DNA of 64,000 nucleotides from Diabrotica undecimpunctata. Its lineage: Eukaryota > Arthropoda > Insecta > Coleoptera > Chrysomelidae. The notes beneath the pieces are model-generated. The model was not told the DNA's origin. It made no database searches and was given only the letters and a program-made list of their open reading frames with translations. Each line of letters opens with the position of its first letter. Position 1 is the first letter of the stretch. The translations under genes were made by a program, and so were the position numbers. This document shows, in pieces, positions 6,405 to 37,061 of this stretch. Location: assembly GCF_040954645.1 (NCBI RefSeq), contig NC_092809.1, forward strand, positions 83,538,389-83,602,388. Reading direction: 5' to 3'.

Positions 6405-9400
6405 TTATTGTTCATATTTGTAAATGTCTTTTATGTTAAAAACTCCTCTAAGATACCCACTCTCAGGATATTTCAATAAATAACTATTTTCTCCATCTTC
6501 TGTTTCAACTTCATAAGGTCCCTCCAATGGTGGTAAAAGTTTGTTACAAATGTTATCTCTATAATTGCTTACCCTATGTGCTCTAATTAATACTAGTTCT
6601 CCTTTTTGAAATTTTTGGTTTGTTCTCATCTTCCTTTTGTTTTGTCTTTTCAAATATTTCTCTCCATTCTTGATGATTCTTAGTTTTACATCTTGACAAA
6701 TTTGGTCATATTCAGGTTCTATTTCTATAATCCAAGGTCTTTCTAGTCTTATCCTTTTCATTAGAAATAGTGGTATCTCATTAGTCACAGTGTTTGGTAA
6801 CTGATTTATGTATTGTTCTATCCTTAATAAATGTTGATCCCATACAGTGTGTTTGTTTTCTATTGATATTCTTAAAAATTTTATCACTTCTTGAATATAT
6901 CTTTCCGAAGGATTTGATTGAGGATGTCTGATGCTTGTAAAACTTAATTTGGTTCCATTTCTTGTCATAAAATTTTTGAATCGGTCGTTTTGGAAATATG
7001 TGGCATTATCCAGTATGCATTGTTTAGGTTTTCCTATTTCTTCAAAATAATTGTTTAAATTATTTATGATAGTGTTGACTTTTGTATTTTTACTGGAATA
7101 AAGTTTGATGAATTTTGAAAATAAATCTACGATTACCATGATATGTTTATGTCCATTTCCTTCCGTTTGTATCAAGTCACTCAAAAAATCTATAGCTATT
7201 ATATCTAAGGGCTCTTGTGCTATTATATTTTTGGGAGTATTCCAATTTGAAAAATTCTTCGATTTTTGTCTTTGACAAGTATGACATTTTCTAGTCAAGT
7301 TTTTGATTATGCTTGTATCCTTCTTGGTGATATAGTTTTCTCGAAACATTAACCATATTTTCTTACTACCCGCGTGTCCATTCTTTTCATGTAAATCCTT
7401 CAGTATTTCTTCGGCTAAATTTTTGCTGATGTAATATAACTCTTGCTCTCCAATTCTTTTAATGTAAATTTGATCTTTCAGTATACATCTTTCCTTTTCT
7501 TTCTGTGTTAAATTTTGCTGATCTTCTCTAATGGCTTGTTTTGAGTACATTCCCTCCTGTTCTTTTAATATATTTAATCCGATTTGAATTTTTCTCTCTT
7601 CTCTTGTTCCTTCCTCTTCGTTCCTTGTCAAGGCATCTGCAATGACATTATCTCTTCCTTTTATATGTCTAATTTCGAAGTTATATTCTTGAAGTAGTAA
7701 AGTCCCACGATGTATTCTATTATTAAGCAATTTGTTATTCATGATATTTATTAACGATAAATGGTCAGTTTCAATATAAAATTTTGATCCTAATAAATAA
7801 TACCGAAATTTTGTTACACAAAATAGTATGCTAGCAAATTCCAATTCGGTGACACTATACCTCTTCTCGTAATTTCTGGTTACACGTGACACAAATGAAA
7901 TAGGAACTTCTTCATTGTCCTGGTCTTGTAACAACACTCCTGCAAATTTGTGCATGGAAGCATCTGTCTGTAGAATGAATGGCAAATCGTACCTGGGGTG
8001 ATAAATTCTTAGATTAGTCCGAAATATGTCCTTTAAATTTTGAAAGGCCTGGTTTTGTTCTTCTTTCCATTTCCATTTTTGATCCTTCTTCAATAGTTGA
8101 ATTAATGGTAATTCTTTCTCACTCAAGTCTGGAATTAATCGTTTAAAGTAGTTGATTAGGCCTATAAATCCTCGTAAATTTTTCAAATTTTTCGGTGCTG
8201 GATAGTTCATTATTTTCTCAATTCTTTCTTCGTCCATAGAAATACCACTTCTGTCTAATTTATATCCTAAATACGTGACCTCTTGTTGATAAAATTGGCA
8301 TTTGTTTAAGTTAATTTTTAATCCTGCTTCATTCAATGCATTCAACAAAATATTTATGTGTGTTAAATGTTCGTGTGATGTGTGAGAATAAATGAGAATA
8401 TCGTCAATGTAGTGTATAATAAAGTCTTCGTATTGATCCAAAATTTGATGTAAAGCACGTACAAGAGCTGAACATGCACTTTGCAAACCGTATGGAACTA
8501 CTTTAAATCTATATATTACCCCTTCTATCGAAAAGGCTGTAAAATCCCTACTATCTTTATGCAATGGTATCAACCAAAAGCTATGCTTCAGGTCAATTTT
8601 TGAAAAATAATTTGATTTAGTTATTTTTCCAAAGATTGCATCTACACTTTGTGGTGCTTCATATTGTGGTGTTGAATATTTGTTAATGTTCCTGGCATCG
8701 AGGCATAATCTTAACTCACCATTGCTCTTCTTCACTACCACTATAGGGTTTATATACTTTGAATTGCTGTTTTCAATTATTCCGTTTTGTAACATCTTCT
8801 CTATCTCCTTTGAAACTTCTTTCCGGTATTTATAAGGAATTGGATATGTCTTCGATTTAAAATTTTCTATTCCTTTTACCTCAATTTTATGCATGTACTT
8901 TTCAGCCACTCGGTTTTCGGATTTTATCAAACCATCATATTTTTGCAACAATCTTCCTACATCTTCTTTCCATTCTTCTGCACATACTAAATTTTCTTCC
9001 AATTCCATTTTACTTTCTTCTGGTTCATTATTTATAAAATTGTAGTTTGTATGATTTTTAATATTGTTAATTTCCTTTATCTTTAATTCCTCTTGTTTTG
9101 ATTCCTCGTCTTCTGTATTTCCAAATTTCAGTACTTCTTCTTGAATTTGTAAAGTTTTGTTTACATAATCGATGACCATTCCATTTCTGTCCATTTCGTC
9201 TGTCCCAATCAAAATATCATGTCTCATGTTTTCTACTATTATGAATTGCATACTATATTCGGTTGTATCAAATAATACTTTTCCCACTATTCCCTTCTTT
9301 GCTTCATATAGTTTTTTGTTGTTTGCACCCACTAGATTAACCTTTGGAATTGAATAACAATATTTTTGAAAATTTAATTCATTAATAACTTTATTGTCAA

Positions 9401-9485
9401 TTAGTGAAACTTCAGAACCCGTGTCTATTAAAATTTTAACTTGTTTTTGAAAGAATTTACCCTGAATTAAAATTAACCCTTGCAA
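6405..9485 (-). CDS. pol: Gypsy-1 Pol polyprotein: protease, RT, RNase H, integrase
   Basis: This 1026-residue frame encodes the enzymes that copy the element's RNA to DNA and insert it. Domains in order: aspartic protease with DTGS at residue 21; reverse transcriptase with YIDD at 359-362; RNase H with TDAS (Asp 508), the E547/E549 region and TDH at 573-575; integrase zinc site H699, H704, C734, C737; integrase core D766, D826, E861, with 34 residues between the last two. All key residues are present, so it looks functional. The first codon is TTG, so the coordinates mark the longest called frame and not a real start. The frame is open upstream to at least 9575 and lies -1 relative to gag, so Pol is probably made as a Gag-Pol fusion by frameshifting. 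No chromodomain or envelope follows. Confidence 0.95.
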   Translation of the reverse strand: MQGLILIQGKFFQKQVKILIDTGSEVSLIDNKVINELNFQKYCYSIPKVNLVGANNKKLYEAKKGIVGKVLFDTTEYSMQFIIVENMRHDILIGTDEMDRNGMVIDYVNKTLQIQEEVLKFGNTEDEESKQEELKIKEINNIKNHTNYNFINNEPEESKMELEENLVCAEEWKEDVGRLLQKYDGLIKSENRVAEKYMHKIEVKGIENFKSKTYPIPYKYRKEVSKEIEKMLQNGIIENSNSKYINPIVVVKKSNGELRLCLDARNINKYSTPQYEAPQSVDAIFGKITKSNYFSKIDLKHSFWLIPLHKDSRDFTAFSIEGVIYRFKVVPYGLQSACSALVRALHQILDQYEDFIIHYIDDILIYSHTSHEHLTHINILLNALNEAGLKINLNKCQFYQQEVTYLGYKLDRSGISMDEERIEKIMNYPAPKNLKNLRGFIGLINYFKRLIPDLSEKELPLIQLLKKDQKWKWKEEQNQAFQNLKDIFRTNLRIYHPRYDLPFILQTDASMHKFAGVLLQDQDNEEVPISFVSRVTRNYEKRYSVTELEFASILFCVTKFRYYLLGSKFYIETDHLSLINIMNNKLLNNRIHRGTLLLQEYNFEIRHIKGRDNVIADALTRNEEEGTREERKIQIGLNILKEQEGMYSKQAIREDQQNLTQKEKERCILKDQIYIKRIGEQELYYISKNLAEEILKDLHEKNGHAGSKKIWLMFRENYITKKDTSIIKNLTRKCHTCQRQKSKNFSNWNTPKNIIAQEPLDIIAIDFLSDLIQTEGNGHKHIMVIVDLFSKFIKLYSSKNTKVNTIINNLNNYFEEIGKPKQCILDNATYFQNDRFKNFMTRNGTKLSFTSIRHPQSNPSERYIQEVIKFLRISIENKHTVWDQHLLRIEQYINQLPNTVTNEIPLFLMKRIRLERPWIIEIEPEYDQICQDVKLRIIKNGEKYLKRQNKRKMRTNQKFQKGELVLIRAHRVSNYRDNICNKLLPPLEGPYEVETEDGENSYLLKYPESGYLRGVFNIKDIYKYEQ

Positions 9486-9568
9486 ATTTTGATTTTTCTT
9501 TTCTTCCCCAAATGTTATGAACTCCCTTGGATGCTCATAGTGACATACGGCCGCATTTAGCAGGTGCT

Positions 9569-11524
9569 TTATTGAAAATTTGGTGATTGTGAATCTGTTG
9601 TGTATTGTGTGTCAAAGGGTTGTGATGGTGATGATGTGTTGAGTGTTTCAATTGGTGACTCTTGTTGACTGACGTCGGTGTATGATTGATGGTGACTTAG
9701 AAAATTCACTTGTCTTTTTTGGTTATTTCTATTTATATCTTCTAGACTTCTAGTGTTATGGTTTCGATTGTTTGTGTAGTTTTGATTTGACTGTTGTTGT
9801 GAATTGTTTGTCTGATTCTGTTGAATGGCACTGTTTGAAAATGCATGATTCATATTGCCATTGGAGTTAAAGTTTCTGTTGTTATTATTGTAATTATTTC
9901 TGTTAAAATTTCCGTTGTTTTGATTATTGTAATTACCGTTTTGATACCGTCCATTATTTCCATAGTTATTGTTGTTAGTTTGATTGTTACGATTATAGTT
10001 TTGGCGATTAAAGTTCTGATTATTTTGGTTGCGGTAGTTATTATTATTATTCCTAAAGTTCGAGTTATTATAGTTGTTGTTACCATTATTTTGTCTATAG
10101 TTATTGTTAAAATTACGATGATTATTGAAATTATTGTCGTTCTGATTATTGTTTCTGCTGTAGTTATTGCTCCCATTGAAGTTGTTATTATTATTATTAT
10201 TTGCTTGGTCATTGTTTTGATACATGGGGTTTCGTTGCTCATGCATCATCAAAAATTGGCACAGTTTGTCTATTTCTTTAAAGTTGTATAACATCATGAT
10301 ATCTTCCAATGTCCGATCAAAGTGTTGCACGATACAACCCACAATGTATTCTTCGTTAAAACCACAGTCTAAGTATTGAGCTGTGCTGTAAATTTGCATG
10401 GCGTACCGGTGGTATGACATGCTACGATTTGGGTTGTATTTGCCACTTAACAGCTCGTTTTTGATTGAACGCTGTTGTGCTTGACCCCAGAAATATTCAC
10501 TGAATTTGGTCGCAAAGTCTTCCAGATCCACCAACTCATTTTCTTTGTTCGAAAACCATAGTAACGCCTCATCCGTCATCTGGTTTCTGATGAATTCTTT
10601 AAAGTCTTCGAAATTTCTGTAAGATGCATATCTGTGCCTAAGGAATTTCATGAAAGGTACTGGATGCTGCTGTTTTATTCTTCCACTAAAATAGATTTTA
10701 CAATCTCTTTCGACCGTTTGTACAACCGGCCTTGCATCCAATTCCTTCTGTGTCACTTCTTTAAGAGACTCTTGTACTCTCCCAATTTCTTTCTCCATTA
10801 TCTCTTTGGTCTTATTCATATTTTCATCTATTTCATCTTCTTTTTTCTTCCACTGTTCATTAATGTCTCGTCGAAATATCTCTTCCTTCTGCTCAATATG
10901 ATGCTCCAGCTGTACTGCCAACACTCCCATTTGTTCGTCAATATCTTCGAACTTTTTTTGGTTATTTTGTTGTTCTAGCTTCAAATTTTGTTCCATTAAT
11001 TCAATCTTTTTATTTTGAGTTTCATTATTCTTTTCCAGCTGTGCCGATAACACTTCCATTTGTTCTTTGCACTGCTCTTCCATCTTGGCCATTTCTAGGG
11101 TTAACTCTTCTTTTACTTCTTCTATCTTCTTTCCCAACTTATCCTCAACCTGTTGTGCCATCTGTTGTATTTTGTCATCAAAATTTTGTGTTATTTCCCG
11201 TTTTATTTCTTTTTTTGTATCTTCAAGTTCTTTTGTCATATGTTGTTTATTTTCTTCTGCTTTCTGGTTTATATTTTGCTCAGTTTTTTTTATTTCCTGT
11301 AACAAAATTGCCATCATCTTGTGAAAGTCCAATTCATCCTTCTTTACGGGCTGAGCTTGGTCTCCACTTGCCATTTGCCTTTCCATTTGTGCTTCTTCTG
11401 GCTGTCTTTTCTCCTCCATTGTCTCCTGTACTTCTTCAGTCTCTTTAATTTGTTCTTCGGTTCTGTCTGTCACTTCCTGTTCTTCTTCTACGTTCTTATG
11501 TGATCTAGTCTTTCTTTTGTCCAT
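9569..11524 (-). CDS. gag: Gypsy-1 Gag: coiled coil, capsid, Asn-rich tail
   Basis: This 651-residue structural protein would form the cytoplasmic particle that packages element RNA. It starts at the ATG 11524-11522, the first in the leader after the primer-binding site. Residues 1-60 are charged; about 65-262 form a long Lys/Glu/Gln coiled coil. Residues 272-432 resemble a retrotransposon capsid, with HPVPFM at 287-292 and DEALLWF at 318-324. Residues 436-600 are dominated by Asn with interspersed Arg, Tyr and Phe. No CCHC zinc knuckle is present, so nucleic-acid binding may fall to this Arg/Asn-rich tail. The HPVPFM region recurs in the Gag of Gypsy-3, which makes the two elements relatives. 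The pol frame overlaps the end of gag. Confidence 0.93.
   Translation of the reverse strand: MDKRKTRSHKNVEEEQEVTDRTEEQIKETEEVQETMEEKRQPEEAQMERQMASGDQAQPVKKDELDFHKMMAILLQEIKKTEQNINQKAEENKQHMTKELEDTKKEIKREITQNFDDKIQQMAQQVEDKLGKKIEEVKEELTLEMAKMEEQCKEQMEVLSAQLEKNNETQNKKIELMEQNLKLEQQNNQKKFEDIDEQMGVLAVQLEHHIEQKEEIFRRDINEQWKKKEDEIDENMNKTKEIMEKEIGRVQESLKEVTQKELDARPVVQTVERDCKIYFSGRIKQQHPVPFMKFLRHRYASYRNFEDFKEFIRNQMTDEALLWFSNKENELVDLEDFATKFSEYFWGQAQQRSIKNELLSGKYNPNRSMSYHRYAMQIYSTAQYLDCGFNEEYIVGCIVQHFDRTLEDIMMLYNFKEIDKLCQFLMMHEQRNPMYQNNDQANNNNNNNFNGSNNYSRNNNQNDNNFNNHRNFNNNYRQNNGNNNYNNSNFRNNNNNYRNQNNQNFNRQNYNRNNQTNNNNYGNNGRYQNGNYNNQNNGNFNRNNYNNNNRNFNSNGNMNHAFSNSAIQQNQTNNSQQQSNQNYTNNRNHNTRSLEDINRNNQKRQVNFLSHHQSYTDVSQQESPIETLNTSSPSQPFDTQYTTDSQSPNFQ
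9575..9581 (-). promoter_or_regulatory. Candidate -1 ribosomal frameshift site (A AAT TTT)
   Basis: On the minus strand the gag frame reads CCA AAT TTT CAA TAA. The heptamer A AAT TTT fits the X XXY YYZ slip pattern and ends one codon before the gag stop at 9571-9569. After a -1 slip the frame is open with no stop into pol. No downstream stem or pseudoknot was worked out. Confidence 0.6.
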
Positions 11525-11680
11525 GTTTATTTTTATTTAATTTCAATTCACTCAATAAACTTATTATCTACACAAATTATACTCTTAACACCCTGTATAT
11601 TATGTTATTAAATGTTTAAGGTACACCACTGGTTAATACTTTGTTATAATGCACTACCTGTCACCGTCCAAATACACAGC

Positions 11681-21051: not shown

Positions 21052-21960
<909 letters not shown>

Positions 21961-23655: not shown

Positions 23656-24011
23656 TGTTGTGAATTTATTAAAAGGTTCAATATTTATAACACTTACGGA
23701 TTTAATTTATTTCTTTATTTATATTAACTTATCTGACAATAATTTATTATATCCGTACGTAACAAATTCGCGAGCGCGGGTCTTGAGAATTAACTGTCCC
23801 TTCCAAATAAAGTTCCGTTATTATATACCAGTGCCGTTATCTCGAAAAATCTAAAACCTTCGATGGCGAAACGGTAAAGGCAAACTGGATTTCCCTCGCA
23901 TCGGTTCTGGAAGGTCGCTCAGGTAAATCGAGGCCTCTCGTAAACTCTACAACATATTAGAATAAAAACATGTTTACAGGTTAAAACTATGACTCATATT
24001 TTTACGTAACA
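23656..24011 (-). repeat. Gypsy-2 3' LTR (356 bp)
   Basis: A direct copy of 29651-30006 with no difference seen by eye. On the minus strand it begins TGTTACGTAAAAATATG. The last codons of Pol and its stop (23976-23974) lie inside it. Confidence 0.97.
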
Positions 24012-25644
24012 TTGCCCCCCTCTCAAAAGATGGTTCCTCCTGGAACCTTGTCGGGGCTAGAACTGGAACGGTATGCTGGTATCGGCAACTGGACCCTCTT
24101 TTACAACTTCCAGTTGTATAAAAATGACAAGGGACGGTTTTCTCTCCGCACCAGTAACTATGCGGATTGCAACAGACTAACACCTGGACTTCGGTGTCTT
24201 TAAAGATCTCCTCCACCATATTTCGGATAACCCTCCAATCTAATTGGCGGCACTCCAACTTTGACATGGCTAACTTTTGCACGTCGGACTCTAGTACGTG
24301 CTCTCTCAATTGAAGTAAGGCTTCCCATACATCTCGGTAGGTAGGTTGGTCACAGGCAGTGTCTTTTGTTACCAGGTAGAAAAGGTAACGTGATGCATCT
24401 TGGAGTTTCAAGGTTTTACCGGGAGCTGGCACCTGGCACTGAAGTTCTGCAACTCGACCAAACTTCCTTCGAAAGACGGATGCCAACCCTGGTGCGTCTT
24501 TGATACTGGCCGGGATGGTAAGGGCCAGCGAGTAGTCATCGGGGAGCGCGAGTAGATCTTGCTTTTCTTCAGTGGTAACACCATGTCTTGCTTTACCGGT
24601 ACCTCCATAGGCACCCATGAATTCCTCAAACGTGAGGTCAGACACGTCTTGGACTTGGTTTACCTCCACTTCTTCATCTACGTCGTGGTCACCTTCAAAA
24701 GACGCCAGCCGGTTATGGTGTACTATCATCGGCTTTCCCCTCGGAATCTTGCTTATTCGGTAGATGACATCGTTGATCTTCTCCATAATTAGGTATGGGC
24801 CTTCCCAAAACTGCTGCAATTTGGGAGAACAACCTTTTCGCTTCTTGGGATTATACAGCCATACTTTGTCGTTCTTCTTAAAGCAACCCTTTTCGGCTTG
24901 TGTATCGTACCGTTTCTTCATTCTGTCGCTAGCGATCTGAAGGTGGGAACGGACCAACTCATGTACATTGTCCATTCTTCTTCGTAATTCGATCACATAA
25001 TCTTCACCTGCTACATCTTCTCCAGGTTTACATCCAAACTCGAGATCACAAGGTAGTCGCATTTCGCGTCCGAATAGGACTTTGGCTGGTGTCTGGCCTG
25101 TTGATTCGTTAACAGCAGATCTGTAAGCCATTGTGAAGAACGGAAGGTATTGGTCCCAGTCTCGCTGATGATCGGACACCATCTTTGTCAAATACTTGCC
25201 AACTGTCCTATTCATTCGTTCTACCATACCATCCGATTGCGGATGATACGCGGTAGTTCTTGTTTTCTTCATGCCTAGTCTATCACATATTCCTTGGAAT
25301 AGATCGCTTTCGAAGTTCCTGCCTTGGTCACTATGGATCTCCAAAGGCACTCCAAATCGGCTGATATATTCTTGGATCAACTTATCTGCAACGGTGGCGG
25401 CCTTCTGGTCTGGAAGTGCGTAAATCTCGACCCACTTAGTGAAGTAATCCATTACTACCAGCATGTACTTGCCTCCGTTTTCACTTTCTGGAAATGGCCC
25501 AGCGATGTCCAAAGCTATTCTTTCAAACGGGCTTCCAACATTATATTGTCTCATAGGAGCTCTCCTTTTTCGGTAAGGCCCGTTACTCGTGGCACAAATA
25601 GTACATTTCTTACACCAGTCTTTTACATCGTCGGAACTGTTCAT
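23974..25644 (-). CDS. pol: Gypsy-2 Pol 3' part: integrase, macro-like domain, CCCH finger
   Basis: This 556-residue frame is the continuation of Pol after a frameshift. Residues 11-17 hold the CxxC-type pair of the integrase zinc site. D46, D106 and E142 form the integrase triad, with 35 residues between the last two; about 250-315 is the integrase C-terminal domain. An acidic linker follows (318-345). Residues 369-492 resemble OARD1/TARG1-type macro domains, which remove ADP-ribose from proteins: SLALTIPASIKDAPGLASVF, RKFGRVAEL, RYLFYLVTK and the following PTY align well, and K427 matches the active-site Lys. C506, C514, C520 and H524 make a C-x7-C-x5-C-x3-H zinc finger of the RNA-binding type. 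The last codons lie in the LTR. The first Met is internal; it is not a true start. Macro-domain function is inferred from sequence pattern only. Confidence 0.9.
   Translation of the reverse strand: MNSSDDVKDWCKKCTICATSNGPYRKRRAPMRQYNVGSPFERIALDIAGPFPESENGGKYMLVVMDYFTKWVEIYALPDQKAATVADKLIQEYISRFGVPLEIHSDQGRNFESDLFQGICDRLGMKKTRTTAYHPQSDGMVERMNRTVGKYLTKMVSDHQRDWDQYLPFFTMAYRSAVNESTGQTPAKVLFGREMRLPCDLEFGCKPGEDVAGEDYVIELRRRMDNVHELVRSHLQIASDRMKKRYDTQAEKGCFKKNDKVWLYNPKKRKGCSPKLQQFWEGPYLIMEKINDVIYRISKIPRGKPMIVHHNRLASFEGDHDVDEEVEVNQVQDVSDLTFEEFMGAYGGTGKARHGVTTEEKQDLLALPDDYSLALTIPASIKDAPGLASVFRRKFGRVAELQCQVPAPGKTLKLQDASRYLFYLVTKDTACDQPTYRDVWEALLQLREHVLESDVQKLAMSKLECRQLDWRVIRNMVEEIFKDTEVQVLVCCNPHSYWCGEKTVPCHFYTTGSCKRGSSCRYQHTVPVLAPTRFQEEPSFERGAMLRKNMSHSFNL
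24015..24024 (-). other. Gypsy-2 polypurine tract
   Basis: The minus strand reads GAGAGGGGGG three bases before the 3' LTR, the expected primer site for plus-strand DNA synthesis. It is also read as Pol codons (Glu-Arg-Gly). Confidence 0.88.
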
Positions 25645-28159
25645 CCAATAAAACCGTTCCCGAATTCGCTGAAGGGGTTTTCCTTACACCAAAATGCCCT
25701 CCCGATGGACTGTCGTGTAACTGACGAAGTACTTCCGCTATTCTGCTCTTTGGGATCACCAACTGTCTTCTCTTTTCCGAACCGTCATCATTTTCCAGGA
25801 CTCGTTTGAGCAAGCCATCTTCGATGATAAATGAGTCCCACTGGGCCCAATACGTCTTAACTACTGAGCATAGGTTTGATATTTCCTGCCAAGGTGGTCG
25901 ACGGTTTTCCTCTTTCCATTTTCGGATTTTCTGTATAACTGGATCTCTCTCTTGTTCTTCCCTTATCTTAGTAGGCGTCCAGTCGTCGTTGACAATCGTC
26001 GTTCTTAGCACTGCTGCTTCCTTGGATTCAGTTTTGTTGCAGTGGGAACACTCTGCTGGGCATGGCCTTCTGGAAAGAGAATCAGCGTTTCTGTGGCTAA
26101 CTCCGGCCCGGTGCTCAATCTTAAAATCGTATTCTTGGAGTCGTTCGATCCACCTGGCTATCTGACCCTCTGGATTCTTAAACTGCATCAACCACTTAAG
26201 GGCGGCATGGTCGGTTCGGATTAGAAACTTTCTGCCATAGAGGTATTGATAGAAGTGCTCTACTGATTTCACTACTGCCAGAAGTTCTCTTCTCGTGACG
26301 CAATAATTCCGTTCAGGTTTTGAAAGAACTTTACTAAAATATCCGAGAACTCGTTCCTGTCCTCCTTGAATCTGAGACAGCACTCCTCCAATTCCCACAT
26401 TACTTGCGTCCGTATCTAAGATGAACTCTCCTTCTGGCAGTGGATACCCTAAAATTGGTGCTGTTATTAAATGCTTTTTCAACGTTTCAAAGGCATTTTG
26501 GCAGTCTATATCCCAGCGGTATTCTCTTGCTTCCTCTGTAAGTCGCGTTAATGGCTTAGCGATATCTGCAAACTTCTTAATAAACCTCCGGTAGTAAGTA
26601 CATAGTCCAAGAAAACTTCTCACTTGATGTTTGTCAGTTGGTTTTGGCCATTCCTTAATGGAATCGATTTTTCCCTTATCCACGGCCACTCCTTCTTTAC
26701 TGACTATATGACCCAGATAATTGACTTTACCTTGAAATAGCTGGCACTTCTTGGGGTTTAGCATCAATTGGGCAGCTTTAAGTTGATTAAAAACGTTTTC
26801 TAAATTCCTCAAATGATCTTCGAATGTCTCCCCCAAGACGATTATGTCATCTAAATAAACCAGGCATGTTTTCCAAGATAACCCTCTCAACACATTTTCC
26901 ATAAGCCTCTCAAATGTCGCAGGAGCATTACAAAGTCCAAATGGCATAACGTTGAATTGCCACAATCCAGATCTTGTGGTGAAGGCTGTCTTTTCTTTAT
27001 CGACTGGGTCCATTTCTACCTGCCAGTATCCAGACTTCAAATCTAAAGTAGAAAACAATTTACTTCCAGCCAATGTGTCCAATGTGTCATCGATCCGAGG
27101 CAGAGGATAACTATCTTTCTTGGTAACGTTGTTCAGCAAACGGTAATCCACACAGAACCTCGTCGTTCCGTCTTTCTTCTTAACCAGGACCACCGGAGAG
27201 ACCCATGGACTCGTAGAAGGTTCTATCACCCCGTCTTTCTTCATTTCCTGAACAATCGTTTCAGCTTCCTCTCTCTTCGCCTGTGGTAATCGTCGAGCTG
27301 TTTGACGAATTGGCTTAGCATTACCAGTATCAATTTTATGCTTAACAACGGTAGTTCTTCCCGTCTTTCCTCCTTTCGGTACGAAAATATCACGATACTG
27401 CCGAAGAAATTCCCTTAATTTCCTTTTCTCCATCTGATTTAGAGACTGTCCTGCAACTGCAACCATTTGGTCGAATTTGTCGTTGGAATTATCAGATGTT
27501 GTCGCCTGACGGATTATGGATGTCACAGGTACACAAGTTCCTACCTTTGTCTCTTTCTTGATGGTCACTGGGTAGTCGTTGACATTGATAAGTCTCACAG
27601 GAATTTCTTTAGCCGAAGTCACCAATTCCTTTCCAATTATGATTCCACGGCCAACCTCATCGTCGTGGTTCCAAGGCTCCATCATAACAGGTCTCCCTTC
27701 GTCCACAATTCCCTGTAGCCGCGCTACTATGATCGTTTCGCTTCTCGCAGGCACGACTGTATCTTCTTTAATGGCTGCTTGCACAGTGTTGTCATTATGT
27801 GGATGGAGAAATACTTCCTCGTTGCCAACTTTGATTACCTTATTCTTAAAATCCAATTGGAATCCATGCATATTCATTACGTCCATCCCTAATATAACAT
27901 CCTCTTCGATGTCAGCAACTATAACAGTATGGACAAACTTTTCTGCTCCAATTCCCAATTGTACCTGGATTTCTCCATGAATGTTGGCATTTTCACCTGT
28001 AGCGGTCCGAAGTCGCAACCTCGTTGGTAACAGCTTCTTTCGGCTGTTTATAACTGTCGAGCGTATAATGGTTCTGGTCGCTCCGGTATCCACCAACAAC
28101 GTATGCTTTTTACCATTTATGTCTCCATCTACATATACACTATCTTCACGACATTTCAA
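25610..28159 (-). CDS. pol: Gypsy-2 Pol 5' part: protease, RT, RNase H, start of integrase
   Basis: In this 849-residue frame the protease has DTGA at 24-27, RT has YLDD at 435-438, and RNase H has TDAS (Asp 584) followed by a normal RNase H run. The frame enters the integrase zinc-binding region with GGHFG, then loses its frame near 25677 and ends at 25610 with unrelated residues. The first codon is TTG. The open frame reaches back to 28270 and overlaps gag by 40 bases in the -1 frame, so expression as a Gag-Pol fusion is likely. The overlap has no perfect slip heptamer; G GAA AAC just before the gag stop is the nearest. All catalytic motifs seen are intact. Confidence 0.94.
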   Translation of the reverse strand: MKCREDSVYVDGDINGKKHTLLVDTGATRTIIRSTVINSRKKLLPTRLRLRTATGENANIHGEIQVQLGIGAEKFVHTVIVADIEEDVILGMDVMNMHGFQLDFKNKVIKVGNEEVFLHPHNDNTVQAAIKEDTVVPARSETIIVARLQGIVDEGRPVMMEPWNHDDEVGRGIIIGKELVTSAKEIPVRLINVNDYPVTIKKETKVGTCVPVTSIIRQATTSDNSNDKFDQMVAVAGQSLNQMEKRKLREFLRQYRDIFVPKGGKTGRTTVVKHKIDTGNAKPIRQTARRLPQAKREEAETIVQEMKKDGVIEPSTSPWVSPVVLVKKKDGTTRFCVDYRLLNNVTKKDSYPLPRIDDTLDTLAGSKLFSTLDLKSGYWQVEMDPVDKEKTAFTTRSGLWQFNVMPFGLCNAPATFERLMENVLRGLSWKTCLVYLDDIIVLGETFEDHLRNLENVFNQLKAAQLMLNPKKCQLFQGKVNYLGHIVSKEGVAVDKGKIDSIKEWPKPTDKHQVRSFLGLCTYYRRFIKKFADIAKPLTRLTEEAREYRWDIDCQNAFETLKKHLITAPILGYPLPEGEFILDTDASNVGIGGVLSQIQGGQERVLGYFSKVLSKPERNYCVTRRELLAVVKSVEHFYQYLYGRKFLIRTDHAALKWLMQFKNPEGQIARWIERLQEYDFKIEHRAGVSHRNADSLSRRPCPAECSHCNKTESKEAAVLRTTIVNDDWTPTKIREEQERDPVIQKIRKWKEENRRPPWQEISNLCSVVKTYWAQWDSFIIEDGLLKRVLENDDGSEKRRQLVIPKSRIAEVLRQLHDSPSGGHFGVRKTPSANSGTVLLDEQFRRCKRLV

Positions 28160-28230
28160 AGAAGCTATTAGTATGAGAGGGTCTTTGGAAAAGTTCTGGG
28201 TCGAAGCTGCCCCCCTAAGGCTGACCCGTT

Positions 28231-29574
28231 CTAGTTTTCCTGATGGTGAGTTTCTTGATTTGCGTCGTACCTAGGGTGCTTACAGGAGCTTCGTACGTGT
28301 CCTATTTCGCCACAATTCCAGCATCTGATGGTCTTCGTTTTCTTGTATGTCATGCTTTTCATCATATTAACGAGCTGGTCAAGTTTATCTTCATCTCCTT
28401 CCTCTTTTACAGTCCTAACTTTACTGTACCCGCCAGAGGCCTGCGTAGCTGACTCGTATTCGAGGGCGGCGGATAGGACATCAACCAGTGTCTTGTGACG
28501 AGCTAATCGCAGTGTTCTCTGCATTTCATGATCACGAAGACCATCAATAAACGTTTGAACGGCCAATTTTTCTATCATGTCTTCGGGAGCTGTTGGATAA
28601 GCATATCGTACTAATCTGGCAATATCTACCTCATATTCTTGAAGAGCCTCATCTTTCTTCTGTCTACGATTTTTAAGCTGTGACTGATATACATGCTCCA
28701 AATGTTCGTGGCCATATCGCATATTTAACCTCTTCTTCAGTTGTTCGAAATCATCGGTCTCCTCTACGGCTATGGTCTGAAGCACATCTAAGGCATCTCC
28801 TCGACAGGCGATAGTCAGGTTTACAGCCTTTTCTTTTTCAGACCATCCATTTGCTCTTACGGCTGATTCGAACTGTTTCATGTAGTTGTTCCATGATGAT
28901 TTTCCGTCGAAAGTTGGGACTTTAACATGAATAGAACCTCCACTTCCTTCAAATTTCGGCCGTGTCTCCAACTTAAATTTCGTCTCGTCTTCTTTTATCT
29001 CCACTGTAGTCGGATTGTTACCTCTCTCTGCTGTACCTGTTTCTTCCATCTTCCTTTCCATCTCTTTAATCTTTTCTTCGAAGGCCAACTTATCGGCAGC
29101 AACTTGGTTTTTTAACGAAGATATTCTATCGTCCAGGGCAGACATCTCAGAAGTGACTTTAGAGATTTCTGAAGAGATGTTAGCAGAAACTTTGCTTTCC
29201 AGGGAAGAAATCTCGTTAGAAACTTTGCTTTCTAAAGAAGCGATGTCGCCGGAAACTTTCGAAATATCGCCAGAAACTTTGTTCTCTAATGATGCGATGT
29301 CACCAGAAACTTTGGCTACATCACCAGAAACTTTGGCCACATCACCAGAAACTTTGGCTACATCACCAGAAACTTTGGCTACATCACCAGAAACTTTCGA
29401 AATCGACGAGAGGACAGCATCTTCAAATATATAAGTCTCTGGATCTAGTCCTTCTTCTAGCAAAGCGTTCTTTAGTCGTTGGACTAACTCAGCCTTTTTT
29501 CCGGTAGAAGCTAATTCTCTGTCTTCAAGATGTCTTCTTAAATTAGTCACTGTCAGCTCATAAATCGTCGTCAT
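28231..29574 (-). CDS. gag: Gypsy-2 Gag: SAP-like motif, heptad repeats, capsid, CCHC knuckle
   Basis: The 447-residue structural protein starts at the ATG 29574-29572 (a GTG two codons upstream only lengthens the frame). Residues ~8-42 match a SAP motif (LRRHLEDRELASTGKKAELV then QRL), a helix pair known to bind AT-rich chromosomal DNA. Residues ~58-158 are coiled-coil heptads, several of them near-identical VSGDVAK repeats. About 200-400 is the retrotransposon capsid region (KVPTFDGKSSWNNYMKQFE). C418, C421, H426 and C431 form a CCHC zinc knuckle for RNA packaging. The stop is at 28233-28231. A SAP motif in Gag could link particles or pre-integration complexes to chromatin; that is inference. 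Confidence 0.93.
   Translation of the reverse strand: MTTIYELTVTNLRRHLEDRELASTGKKAELVQRLKNALLEEGLDPETYIFEDAVLSSISKVSGDVAKVSGDVAKVSGDVAKVSGDVAKVSGDIASLENKVSGDISKVSGDIASLESKVSNEISSLESKVSANISSEISKVTSEMSALDDRISSLKNQVAADKLAFEEKIKEMERKMEETGTAERGNNPTTVEIKEDETKFKLETRPKFEGSGGSIHVKVPTFDGKSSWNNYMKQFESAVRANGWSEKEKAVNLTIACRGDALDVLQTIAVEETDDFEQLKKRLNMRYGHEHLEHVYQSQLKNRRQKKDEALQEYEVDIARLVRYAYPTAPEDMIEKLAVQTFIDGLRDHEMQRTLRLARHKTLVDVLSAALEYESATQASGGYSKVRTVKEEGDEDKLDQLVNMMKSMTYKKTKTIRCWNCGEIGHVRSSCKHPRYDANQETHHQEN
29298..29400 (-). repeat. 21-bp minisatellite inside Gypsy-2 gag
   Basis: About five near-perfect copies of a 21-bp unit (ACATCACCAGAAACTTTGGC on plus, plus one base) encode the VSGDVAK heptad. The unit length is a whole number of codons and of coiled-coil heptads, so copy number can change without breaking frame or coil. 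More diverged units continue to about 29160. Confidence 0.92.
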
Positions 29575-29631
29575 TTTCACAATTTACAAATATTCACTTG
29601 TATTATTATTATAAGTCTAATTTATGTTCGA

Positions 29632-29648
29632 TCCCACTTCTGACACCA
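29632..29648 (-). other. Gypsy-2 primer-binding site, tRNA-Leu
   Basis: The minus strand reads TGGTGTCAGAAGTGGGA two bases inside the 5' LTR. This complements the 3' end of insect tRNA-Leu, which from memory ends TCCCACTTCTGACA plus CCA. Confidence 0.88.
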
Positions 29649-29700
29649 TTTGTTGTGAATTTATTAAAAGGTTCAATATTTATAACACTTACGGATTTAA

Positions 29701-29714
29701 TTTATTTCTTTATT
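29701..29714 (-). promoter_or_regulatory. Polyadenylation signals in Gypsy-2 LTR
   Basis: Two AATAAA hexamers on the minus strand (29706-29701 and 29714-29709), downstream of the TATA box. The same pair is present in the other LTR, where it would end the transcript. Confidence 0.6.
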
Positions 29715-29815
29715 TATATTAACTTATCTGACAATAATTTATTATATCCGTACGTAACAAATTCGCGAGCGCGGGTCTTGAGAATTAACTGTCCCTTCCA
29801 AATAAAGTTCCGTTA

Positions 29816-29822
29816 TTATATA
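29816..29822 (-). promoter_or_regulatory. TATA box in Gypsy-2 5' LTR
   Basis: The minus strand reads GGTATATAATAACGG, the only TATA-like motif set in less AT-rich sequence within the LTR. It is repeated at 23821-23827 in the 3' LTR. Confidence 0.55.
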
Positions 29823-30057
29823 CCAGTGCCGTTATCTCGAAAAATCTAAAACCTTCGATGGCGAAACGGTAAAGGCAAACTGGATTTCCCTCGCATCGGT
29901 TCTGGAAGGTCGCTCAGGTAAATCGAGGCCTCTCGTAAACTCTACAACATATTAGAATAAAAACATGTTTACAGGTTAAAACTATGACTCATATTTTTAC
30001 GTAACAATATATATATATAAAGTAGTTAGGTATTATTGACTGACACGTTATGTAAAA

Positions 30058-34849: not shown

Positions 34850-35330
34850 GTGTGTACTTAAGGCAACAAAAGAGTTTTTGATGCAGAAAACTTTTTTAAA
34901 ACAATTTCCGACTCTAGTATGCCCTCTGTTAATTTCAGACAACATTTGGTTATAAATTTTAATACACTTTGTGAACCTATGATGAAACCTATATGGAAAT
35001 GTTTAACAATATGTCAAATGGACATGACTGCCTTATTAGTTTGTATTTTCGATCGTGATTTATTGTTATAAATTGTGTACAATTTATATAAAAATACATA
35101 CAGAGGCATTATATCAGCATTTAGATATTGATTACCGTTGACATTTGTTTATTTTATTGTGTTGTTTCAGTACTGTGATAAAAACAGGTATGTTGCTTTG
35201 AATCCACGCTGGACCATATTATTTTAAATTATTTCTTTAAGATGGATACAAAGACGTTCTACGGGAAAAGCAGTAAATATCCGAGAAATACAAAGACTCT
35301 GACTTTGATAGTGATAATAAGAAAGTAATA

Positions 35331-37061
35331 ATGAATTTTCCAGGTACTCAGATATCAATCGATCCAGGATCAAATAAAATGGAAAATGAAGACGATTTGT
35401 ACGAAGCAAATTTAGACCAGGATGCCCATTTAGATTTAGACCAAGATGAAGATGAGGGCGATACCGATAAAACAGAAAAACACACTGAACAAAATGTGCT
35501 CAAAAGGTCAAAAATGATCGTAAAAAACATTCAGTGGAAGAGTGGTTCCCGAACAGTATTTCCAATTCCAGAATGGAAAGGTAATTTACCAACATGCAAA
35601 TTATTAGAACCGGAACCCCCTCTACATTATGTTAAAAAGATGATATCTACCAATATGCTGGAAAACATAATAGAACAAAGTAATTTGTATGCACTGCAAA
35701 AGAATATAAATAAACCATTGAATATGACACTAACAGAATTAAACCAATTTATTGGATCTGTTCTACTGATGTCAATATATGGCATGCCAAGGACAAGATC
35801 ATTTTGGCAGAAGGAAACACGTGTTGCTCAAATAGTCGATACTATATCTAGGAATCGCTGGGAAGAAATAAAAACTAAAATGCATTTCAGTAATAACGAA
35901 AATATGGTCAACAATAATGATAAGTTATACAAAATTAAATCGTTCATCAACGGTTTAGTTTAAAATTTTCAAAGTATTCCAATGAGTGAAAAATTGTGTA
36001 TTGATGAACCAATGATACCATTCACAGAGGCACATTCTTTAAAACAATATATGAAGAACAAACCCAAAAAATGGGGATACAAGGCATTTGTTTTGTGTGA
36101 TAGCAATGGTATTGTTTATAACTGGGAATTATATACAGGAACTGTTAAACATCCTCTTCATTTACCTAATGTAGACACCAGCGGTAATGTAGTAATAAGA
36201 ATGTGTGAGATAGTCAAACCAAACAAATACTATAAAGTATATTTTGACAACTGGTTCAATAGCATTTAGTTGCAGATTGAAATGGAAAAACGTGGACTGC
36301 AATATTTGGGAACTGTTCTTCCAAACAGATTGCCTTATTGCCATTTTTCTGATGACAAGAATATGAAGAAACAGGGCAGAGGTACTGTAGAAGAAAAGCA
36401 CGCTACAGTAAATGGCATAAGACAAACAGCGTTAAAGTGGTACGATAATAAACCGGTTAATTTGCTTAGTACATTTGTTGGTTCTGAGCCTACTTCGTTA
36501 GTCAAGAGGTGGGATAAAAAACAAAAATCAAGAATTATTGTATGCTGTCCAAATTCAGTGCAATTTTATAATACATTTATTGGAGGTGTCGATCTTATGG
36601 ATTCACTAATTGCTCTTTACCGAACAGACATAAGATCTAAAAAGTGGTATCTAAAAATATTTTTTCACCTTCTGGATTTAGCTGTTGTTAACAGCTGGTT
36701 GTTGCATCCTCGTGATTGCGATTACTTTGAAATTAAAAAGAAAAACCAGTTGCCTCTGTTACAGTTTAAGTCCCACTTATGTAGCGTACTGTTAGTAAGA
36801 ACTGACCAGATCAAAAACAAAGGACGTCCCAGGCTCAGTGAAATTGAGAACGAAATTGTAAAAAAACAGAGGAGAGGATCTACTGCTATTGTACTACCAA
36901 AGGAAGTTAGGCTTGACCAAAGGCCAGTAATTTCTGAAAAAAAGGGAAGATGCAAAAAACCAGGATGCTGTAATACTTCTAAAGTAATGTGCGATAAATG
37001 TAAAGTTGCTTTATGTTTTACAACTACAAATATTTGTTTTTTTGAATGGCATAATAAATAA
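35331..37061 (+). pseudogene. piggyBac transposase, full length with two in-frame stops
   Basis: One frame spans 577 codons, the usual length for the family, interrupted only by TAA at 35961-35963 and TAG at 36267-36269. It has an acidic N-terminus, then LNMTLTELNQFIGSVLLMSI and RSFWQKET. The catalytic region carries SEKLCIDEPMIPF (first Asp), KVYFDNWF (second) and GGVDLMDSL (third and fourth Asp). The C-terminal cysteine-rich finger is CKKPGCCNTSKVMCDKCKVA followed by LCF. All catalytic residues remain, so the gene died recently through point mutations. Upstream of 35331 the frame is open for about a dozen codons to a stop; a start at 35379 (MENEDD) is also possible. Confidence 0.94.

Follow-up and report, generated by a model that had tools for sequence, protein, structure and literature searches.

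The integrase of a Ty3/Gypsy retrotransposon in the beetle Diabrotica undecimpunctata is fused to a macro domain of the TARG1/OARD1 type, and the same fusion is common to many related, mostly insect, elements. The retrotransposon lies in a 64,000-nt stretch of contig NC_092809.1 (hereafter the window), in which a Gypsy Pol ending in such a domain had originally been predicted. The reading favoured here, to which we assign a probability of about one half, is that a Ty3/Gypsy lineage captured a TARG1-type macro domain that would act in the majority of its members as a hydrolase erasing ADP-ribose, and that would have become a non-catalytic module in the branch to which the window copy belongs.

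The element occupies positions 23656-30006 of the minus strand and is bounded by two identical LTRs (identity over 356 nt; Table 1). Together with the LTRs, the presence of a Gag and the domain order protease, reverse transcriptase (RT), RNase H and integrase identify it as Ty3/Gypsy. ATAT is found on each of its outer sides, although as a target-site duplication this is ambiguous because the surroundings are AT-rich. In the window copy, a frame break within the H2C2 zinc-binding motif of the integrase splits the protease, RT and RNase H from the frame containing the integrase and the macro domain. In this last Pol frame, which ends inside the 3′ LTR (stop codon at 23974-23976), the integrase core is followed by a p58-type C-terminal domain, the macro domain and a CCCH finger, in that order; no chromodomain family was present among the 13 Pfam families matching the frame at E ≤ 1. 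The Gag of the element opens with a SAP domain, which is an unusual start for a Gypsy Gag, and at 29246-29404 (minus strand) bears 21-nt tandem repeats that encode a recurring VSGDVAK heptad.

Table 1. Features of the macro-bearing Gypsy element, in window coordinates.
Feature	Position	Strand	Details and basis
3′ LTR	23656..24011	-	356 bp, TG..CA; identical to the other LTR
Polypurine tract adjoining the 3′ LTR	24012..24029	-	Within the Pol reading frame (encodes ..FERGAM); position and composition
CCCH zinc finger	24073..24141	-	Residues 515-537 of the integrase frame; PF00642, E 2.8e-6; CPSF4 fingers, E 1.7e-5
TARG1/OARD1-type macro domain	24169..24597	-	About residues 363-505; phmmer, predicted fold, residue alignment, shuffle control
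Integrase p58-type C-terminal domain	24703..24801	-	Residues 295-327; PF22938, E 3e-13
Integrase core (rve)	25240..25527	-	Residues 53-148; PF00665, E 5.7e-14
Integrase-macro frame	25683..23974	-	569 aa; open reading frame
Overlap between the two Pol frames	25610..25683	-	H2C2 match divided between both frames
Protease, reverse transcriptase and RNase H frame	25613..28270	-	886 aa; PF13975; PF00078, E 9.5e-39; PF17917
Gag frame	28231..29583	-	450 aa; SAP domain, heptad repeats, Retrotrans_gag, CCHC knuckle; Pfam matches
Primer-binding site	29635..29648	-	TGGTGTCAGAAGTG (minus strand), 2 nt inside the 5′ LTR; assigned by position
5′ LTR	29651..30006	-	356 bp; identical LTR pair

Other mobile elements are also present in the window. 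A second Gypsy element (6405-11536, minus strand) has an integrase frame that ends in an SH3-like match and is without a macro domain, and two frames at 35277-37061 (plus strand) contain between them the two ends of DDE_Tnp_1_7, a transposase of the piggyBac type. At about 21500-21710 a long inverted repeat, its arms separated by a short centre, was noticed by eye; it is possibly a small foldback element.

The macro motifs on which the original prediction was based are present, in a single open frame with the integrase. The location proposed for the domain was right, while its extent proved slightly greater than the residues 369-492 first given (Table 1). Its resemblance to OARD1/TARG1 was borne out both by sequence and by predicted fold. 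When residues 340-569 were compared with the PDB sequences using phmmer, the top five rows were all human C6orf130/OARD1 (E 2.7e-21 to 1.1e-20), the best being 2eee_A (E 2.7e-21, with an alignment covering 141 residues of the query). Scored locally with BLOSUM62 against human OARD1, the segment reached 217, whereas 2000 shuffles averaged 26 and peaked at 48; as a control, the C-terminal 230 residues of 104 proteins without a macro domain scored at most 44. An AlphaFold2 model obtained from a 25-row alignment had a mean pLDDT of 80.7 (means of 81-97 per ten-residue block from 11 to 170, the finger region being weaker). In a Foldseek search of the PDB with this model, ranks 1-8 corresponded to TARG1/C6orf130, with DarG below all eight; the top match was 4j5s_C (TARG1; E 4.2e-15, TM 0.92 by target, 1.4 Å), and identity between the window copy and human TARG1 in the Foldseek alignments was 33-34%. 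The model of P0148, a relative with an intact catalytic pair, also gave TARG1 first (TM 0.95, 41% identity). The segment is thus confirmed as a TARG1/OARD1-type macro domain.

The Pfam Macro profile (PF01661), which had been suggested as a check along with structure prediction, behaved differently from the fold search: it did not match the window copy at E ≤ 1, and its gathering score (22 bits) was not reached by this copy. The profile matched 9 of 28 macro-bearing members at E ≤ 0.01 (P0018 at 22.1 bits), and, among the RT matches listed, Macro is not named in the precomputed Pfam annotation of any macro-bearing Pol. The failure of PF01661 to detect the window copy is the one point in favour of a chance resemblance, or of an insertion unique to this copy. 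That reading, to which we give practically no weight, is refuted by the E-value against OARD1, the shuffle control and the TARG1 fold, as well as by the RT clade, the macro-domain tree and the genome copies described below.

A search with the RT frame, of which the best 120 of 7925 relatives were used, led to a set of 126 proteins that includes the window's own frames. A macro domain, called by phmmer with a fragment of human OARD1 (E < 1e-5), was found in 22 of the 126, so that the segment is not a feature absent from all related elements; in 14 of these 22 proteins the domain is followed by a CCCH pattern. A fusion restricted to the window copy was rejected as well, since relatives carrying the macro domain occur among the public proteins and in the same genome. 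In an RT tree of 121 rows (a quick tree with a midpoint root), a clade of 27 rows with an SH-aLRT of 100 contained all 18 macro rows having a usable RT piece, six incomplete rows (one of them the RT frame of the window) and three rows without a macro domain (P0015, P0021 and P0026). P0015 and P0026 terminate shortly past the integrase, and P0021 shows, by eye, an apparent remnant of the CCCH finger. Outside the clade, none of the 94 rows (81 with an integrase end, 13 incomplete) had a macro domain. A profile search (best 120 of 6918) added six shorter macro proteins, two from Macrosteles, one from Brassicogethes, one from Pyrocoelia and two others. Where named, the hosts of the macro rows are the beetles Diabrotica, Aromia, Callosobruchus, Brassicogethes and Pyrocoelia, and a leafhopper; the named protein nearest to the window frame, 89% identical, is from Diabrotica virgifera. 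One macro-Gypsy Pol, P0028, is labelled as coming from the fungus Erysiphe pulchra but groups with the other macro elements; the label may reflect contamination or transfer.

The macro domains themselves were also compared. The 27 retroelement rows formed a single group in the macro-domain tree (100/98), apart from 18 animal OARD1 rows (17 of at least 31 other animal proteins listed, plus the human fragment) and 20 IMG/VR rows. P0012, which is incomplete, was omitted from this tree, from the active-site table and from the pairwise-identity comparison, and P0007 aligns to the first part of the macro region only. Among 16 Pols, the mean pairwise identity of the macro domain was 0.50, versus 0.25 for the adjoining linker. 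Two proteins of Macrosteles quadrilineatus annotated as OARD1-like (P0139 and P0193) sit inside the retroelement group, and the N-terminal start of P0139 resembles an integrase tail; to judge from their sequences, they are probably pieces of Gypsy Pol and not of a host TARG1 gene. Macro-Gypsy elements may account for some insect genes annotated as OARD1-like, these two leafhopper entries being ones that look like element pieces.

A host-gene search of the Diabrotica genome with mammalian OARD1 (best 150 scored of 4793 candidates) gave one outstanding match (L132; contig C3:100934206-100934631), 48% identical and with an intact catalytic pair. This TARG1-like gene sits in a frame of 760 aa. No integrase was seen by eye in the 400-aa stretch read, and a Pfam scan of 247 residues returned nothing convincing (best E 0.084); the part read contains repeated stretches upstream of the macro domain. 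A tree separated the beetle host gene and 31 retroelement domains from 18 other animal OARD1 and four IMG/VR rows (98/82), the branch of the beetle gene being long (1.15) and its exact attachment unsure. The mean identity of the retroelement domains was 0.42 to the beetle gene and 0.41 to human OARD1, values that do not discriminate between the two. If the IMG/VR domains are taken as the outgroup, these results are most simply read as capture from an insect host, and the retroelement domain is likely to derive from a TARG1-like gene of such a host. The passages cited from PMC4245714 record TARG1 in the fruit fly and only occasionally in invertebrates. TARG1-like macro domains are also encoded by 48 IMG/VR loci (L001-L048), many of them on contigs >100 kb, of which 20 were used in one tree and four in two later ones; an origin from these domains was rejected, none having fallen within the retroelement group in three trees. 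Further macro stretches detected in the Diabrotica genome with Pfam Macro are two that look MacroD-like by eye (L049 and L050) and another macro gene (L051).

Catalysis by TARG1 uses Lys84 and Asp125 (PMC9411070 and the relevant part of PMC7050489, which prints Glu125). In a residue table of 27 retroelement macro domains, drawn from public proteins and the window copy, both residues were kept in 22/22 public relatives outside the window's branch, as were Asp20, Asp37, Gly43 and Gly123. The window's branch, composed of the window copy, P0004, P0008, P0009 and P0005, differs markedly: position 125 is R/S/N/N/G, so that Asp is lost in five of five, and Gly123 and Asp37 are each lost in all five as well. 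Lys84 is K in 25 of the 27 rows, including the window copy, and R in P0009 and P0005 (within the branch, three K and two R), while the core residues Gly43, Gly53, Tyr93, Trp129 and Phe140 are retained. In the window copy the OARD1 loop GCGLD is shortened to EC--RQ, and the equivalent of Asp125 is therefore absent. The proposal that the domain might remove ADP-ribose is consequently not supported for the window copy, the branch of which is without equivalents of Asp125, Gly123 and Asp37. Loss of Asp125 alone is no proof of inactivity, because in DarG the lysine alone is present and SCO6735 is without either residue, and both proteins are described as still reversing thymidine-ADP-ribose (PMC7050489, PMC9411070); with the loop lost, the domain of the window's branch is likely to be inactive.

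When the 1.74-Gb assembly was searched with the window macro domain, 5369 first-look candidates were obtained, of which the best 150 were scored. These copies, the window copy included, are all ≥98% identical and stop-free, with 104 situated in frames at least 1390 aa long; having been chosen as top-scoring, they are biased to conserved copies. The family is young and abundant in its own genome. A sample for the analysis of selection was taken by choosing 30 loci by their integrase and removing the window copy and one locus that was not comparable gap-free, which left 28. The macro domain was without a stop in 28/28, and its unique variant codons relative to the window copy were 10 nonsynonymous and 15 synonymous, giving a pN/pS of 0.20 from these 25 variant codons only (one-sided p 6.6e-5, or 0.002 with synonymous sites weighted 1.5). 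Elsewhere in the integrase-picked copies, pN/pS was 0.77 for the CCCH finger and 0.45 for the linker, neither of which displayed comparable constraint in so small a sample; the value for the integrase, measured in copies picked by macro domain, was 0.18. The macro domain therefore appears to be constrained about as strongly as the integrase despite its lost loop, and shows purifying selection in the window's family. A pN/pS of 0.11, obtained with copies picked by macro identity, was considered biased, and the value from the integrase-picked set is used instead. These data bear on the idea that the domain is now a functionless, decaying passenger in this family, with which the loss of the catalytic loop in the branch would agree, as would the youth of the copies, which have had little time for decay; the constraint near that of the integrase, and the stop-free state of all 28 copies, make it quite improbable. 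The window copy (L055) and another (L056) located ∼172 kb from it on the same contig share the 569-aa last frame. Their match stops at the LTR edge, and elements with a broken Pol therefore seem to have inserted separately, perhaps by moving in trans.

A second macro-Gypsy family is present in the same genome (best 150 scored of 5660 candidates, 20 of them read) and groups, with weak support (85/67), as sister to the window's branch. Its copies have Arg at position 84 (20/20), Ala or Thr at 123 and either Asp (17) or Glu (3) at 125, and retain the equivalents of Asp20, Asp37 and Gly43. Judged from the two families read, in neither of which the catalytic pair is complete, hydrolysis would at the least be dispensable in the Diabrotica genome.

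According to the favoured reading, a Gypsy lineage, mostly of insects so far, would have gained a TARG1-type macro domain, often with a CCCH finger behind it, as a C-terminal extension of its integrase. In the majority form, the integrase would carry an ADP-ribosyl hydrolase into the nucleus along with the element DNA, and this hydrolase would strip ADP-ribose from proteins or nucleic-acid ends, either where the element inserts or in chromatin under PARP control, weakening the response of the host to the element, or its repression. A counter-defence role, which had been raised as one function for the domain, may apply to it; most public relatives have kept the catalytic pair. In the window's branch catalysis would be gone, and the macro domain would persist in the integrase as a module for binding or docking, one that is probably non-hydrolytic. 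Published descriptions are compatible with several of these steps: TARG1 cleaves ADP-ribose from protein esters, nucleic-acid ends and thymidine (PMC7050489, PMC8501950), and L1 is silenced by SIRT6 via mono-ADP-ribosylation of KAP1 (PMC4695847). In Drosophila parp-1 nulls, mobile elements tend upward, some of them from the Gypsy superfamily; among the eight elements with a significant change, five went up and three went down (by type, five LINE-like and three of the Gypsy superfamily), and nine of ten further risen elements, below the cut, were of the Gypsy superfamily, an effect that the authors consider may be indirect (PMC7712786, in the results cited). Weighing against the favoured reading are these mixed PARP-1 data, the fact that both families read broke the catalytic pair, the three members of the RT clade without a macro domain, and, as regards the source, the long branch and unsure attachment of the beetle host gene. 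A more detailed proposal would be that an insect Gypsy clade bears a host-TARG1-derived, integrase-borne hydrolase that erases PARP marks at insertion, that at least one abundant family has turned it into a dead but selected integration module, and that two families of one genome broke the pair differently; we advance it tentatively, as falling somewhat short of even odds.

The domain might alternatively be a reader and not an eraser, that is, a targeting module at the C-terminus of the integrase by which the integration complex would dock on chromatin or proteins bearing ADP-ribose. Its position past the integrase C-terminal domain would suit this role, being like that of the chromodomain of chromoviruses, which sits at the C-terminus of the integrase. 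The second family, with Lys84 lost and the Asp20, Asp37 and Gly43 equivalents kept, points the same way; catalytic loss in both families of the Diabrotica genome would cost a reader little, and ALC1-like macrodomains are described as comprising readers and erasers (PMC7050489). A pure reader, however, would have no need of the Lys84 and Asp125 that 22/22 relatives outside the window's branch have kept. Moreover, ADP-ribose binding would be doubtful in the window's branch, because Asp37 and Gly123 have been lost, and uncertain in the second family because of Ala/Thr at 123. A reader suits the two families of the Diabrotica genome better than an eraser does; as an account of the domain as a whole we regard it as possible but doubtful. 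The two functions are not necessarily alternatives, one being able to succeed the other.

Counter-defence could also take place in the cytoplasm, the macro domain stripping ADP-ribose set on Gag, Pol or the element RNA by antiviral-type PARPs. Viral macro domains are reported to oppose host ADP-ribosylation (PMC7729036), Tribolium is recorded as having a few relatives of the PARP7/11/12/13 branch (PMC4245714), and the best structure match of the window model in the BFVD was VP8 of Kadipiro virus. The fusion partner of the domain is, however, the integrase and not Gag, which would point to the nucleus, and according to the part of PMC7729036 cited here the catalytic residues of the macro domain are lost in insect-restricted alphaviruses. 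On balance, a cytoplasmic site of action seems unlikely.

If the favoured reading, that of an integrase-borne eraser, is true, these elements would indicate, at the level of sequence, that retrotransposon integration in insects encounters ADP-ribosylation either as a barrier or as a handle, and the intact and altered macro domains of related elements would provide natural matched pairs for comparing an eraser with a reader. Macro domains in retroelements (PMC4977317) and captured domains in LTR elements (PMC9289625, PMC6338049) are already known from the passages cited. Among the papers listed from the open-licence part of PubMed Central, a scope that leaves out Repbase reports and most subscription papers, no description was found of an insect Gypsy integrase-macro fusion, nor of an insect integrase-TARG1 clade with repeated catalytic loss.

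Among known systems, TARG1/OARD1 (C6orf130), an ALC1-like hydrolase, is the closest to the Gypsy macro domain in both sequence and fold. Unlike TARG1, the Gypsy domain forms part of a retrotransposon integrase and is frequently accompanied by a CCCH finger; in the window's branch, Asp125 and Gly123 are also missing. DarG and SCO6735, bacterial macrodomains of the ALC1-like class, show that this class can do without the Asp or even the whole catalytic pair, but they are not part of retroelements. Viral macro domains, such as those of alphavirus nsP3 and Kadipiro virus VP8, share the macro fold and are likewise not from retroelements; the alphavirus chains were 10-14% identical to the window model among the Foldseek matches listed, and TARG1-like homologues have been noted in numerous viral genomes, few of them with all essential residues (PMC4245714). 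In chromoviruses, too, the integrase of a Ty3/Gypsy Pol is extended by a chromatin-type domain, the chromodomain, which PMC6338049 names as an accessory domain; its fold differs from that of the macro domain. Fish endogenous retroviruses carry a macro-domain ORF (Basta et al. 2009, as cited in PMC4977317), which is an additional ORF, whereas the Gypsy macro domain is an integrase fusion. Finally, orchid Gypsy elements bear an m6A demethylase of the AlkB type (PMC9289625), which is also a lineage-specific captured domain that removes a modification, but it is a different enzyme, found in plants and encoded by a separate ORF.
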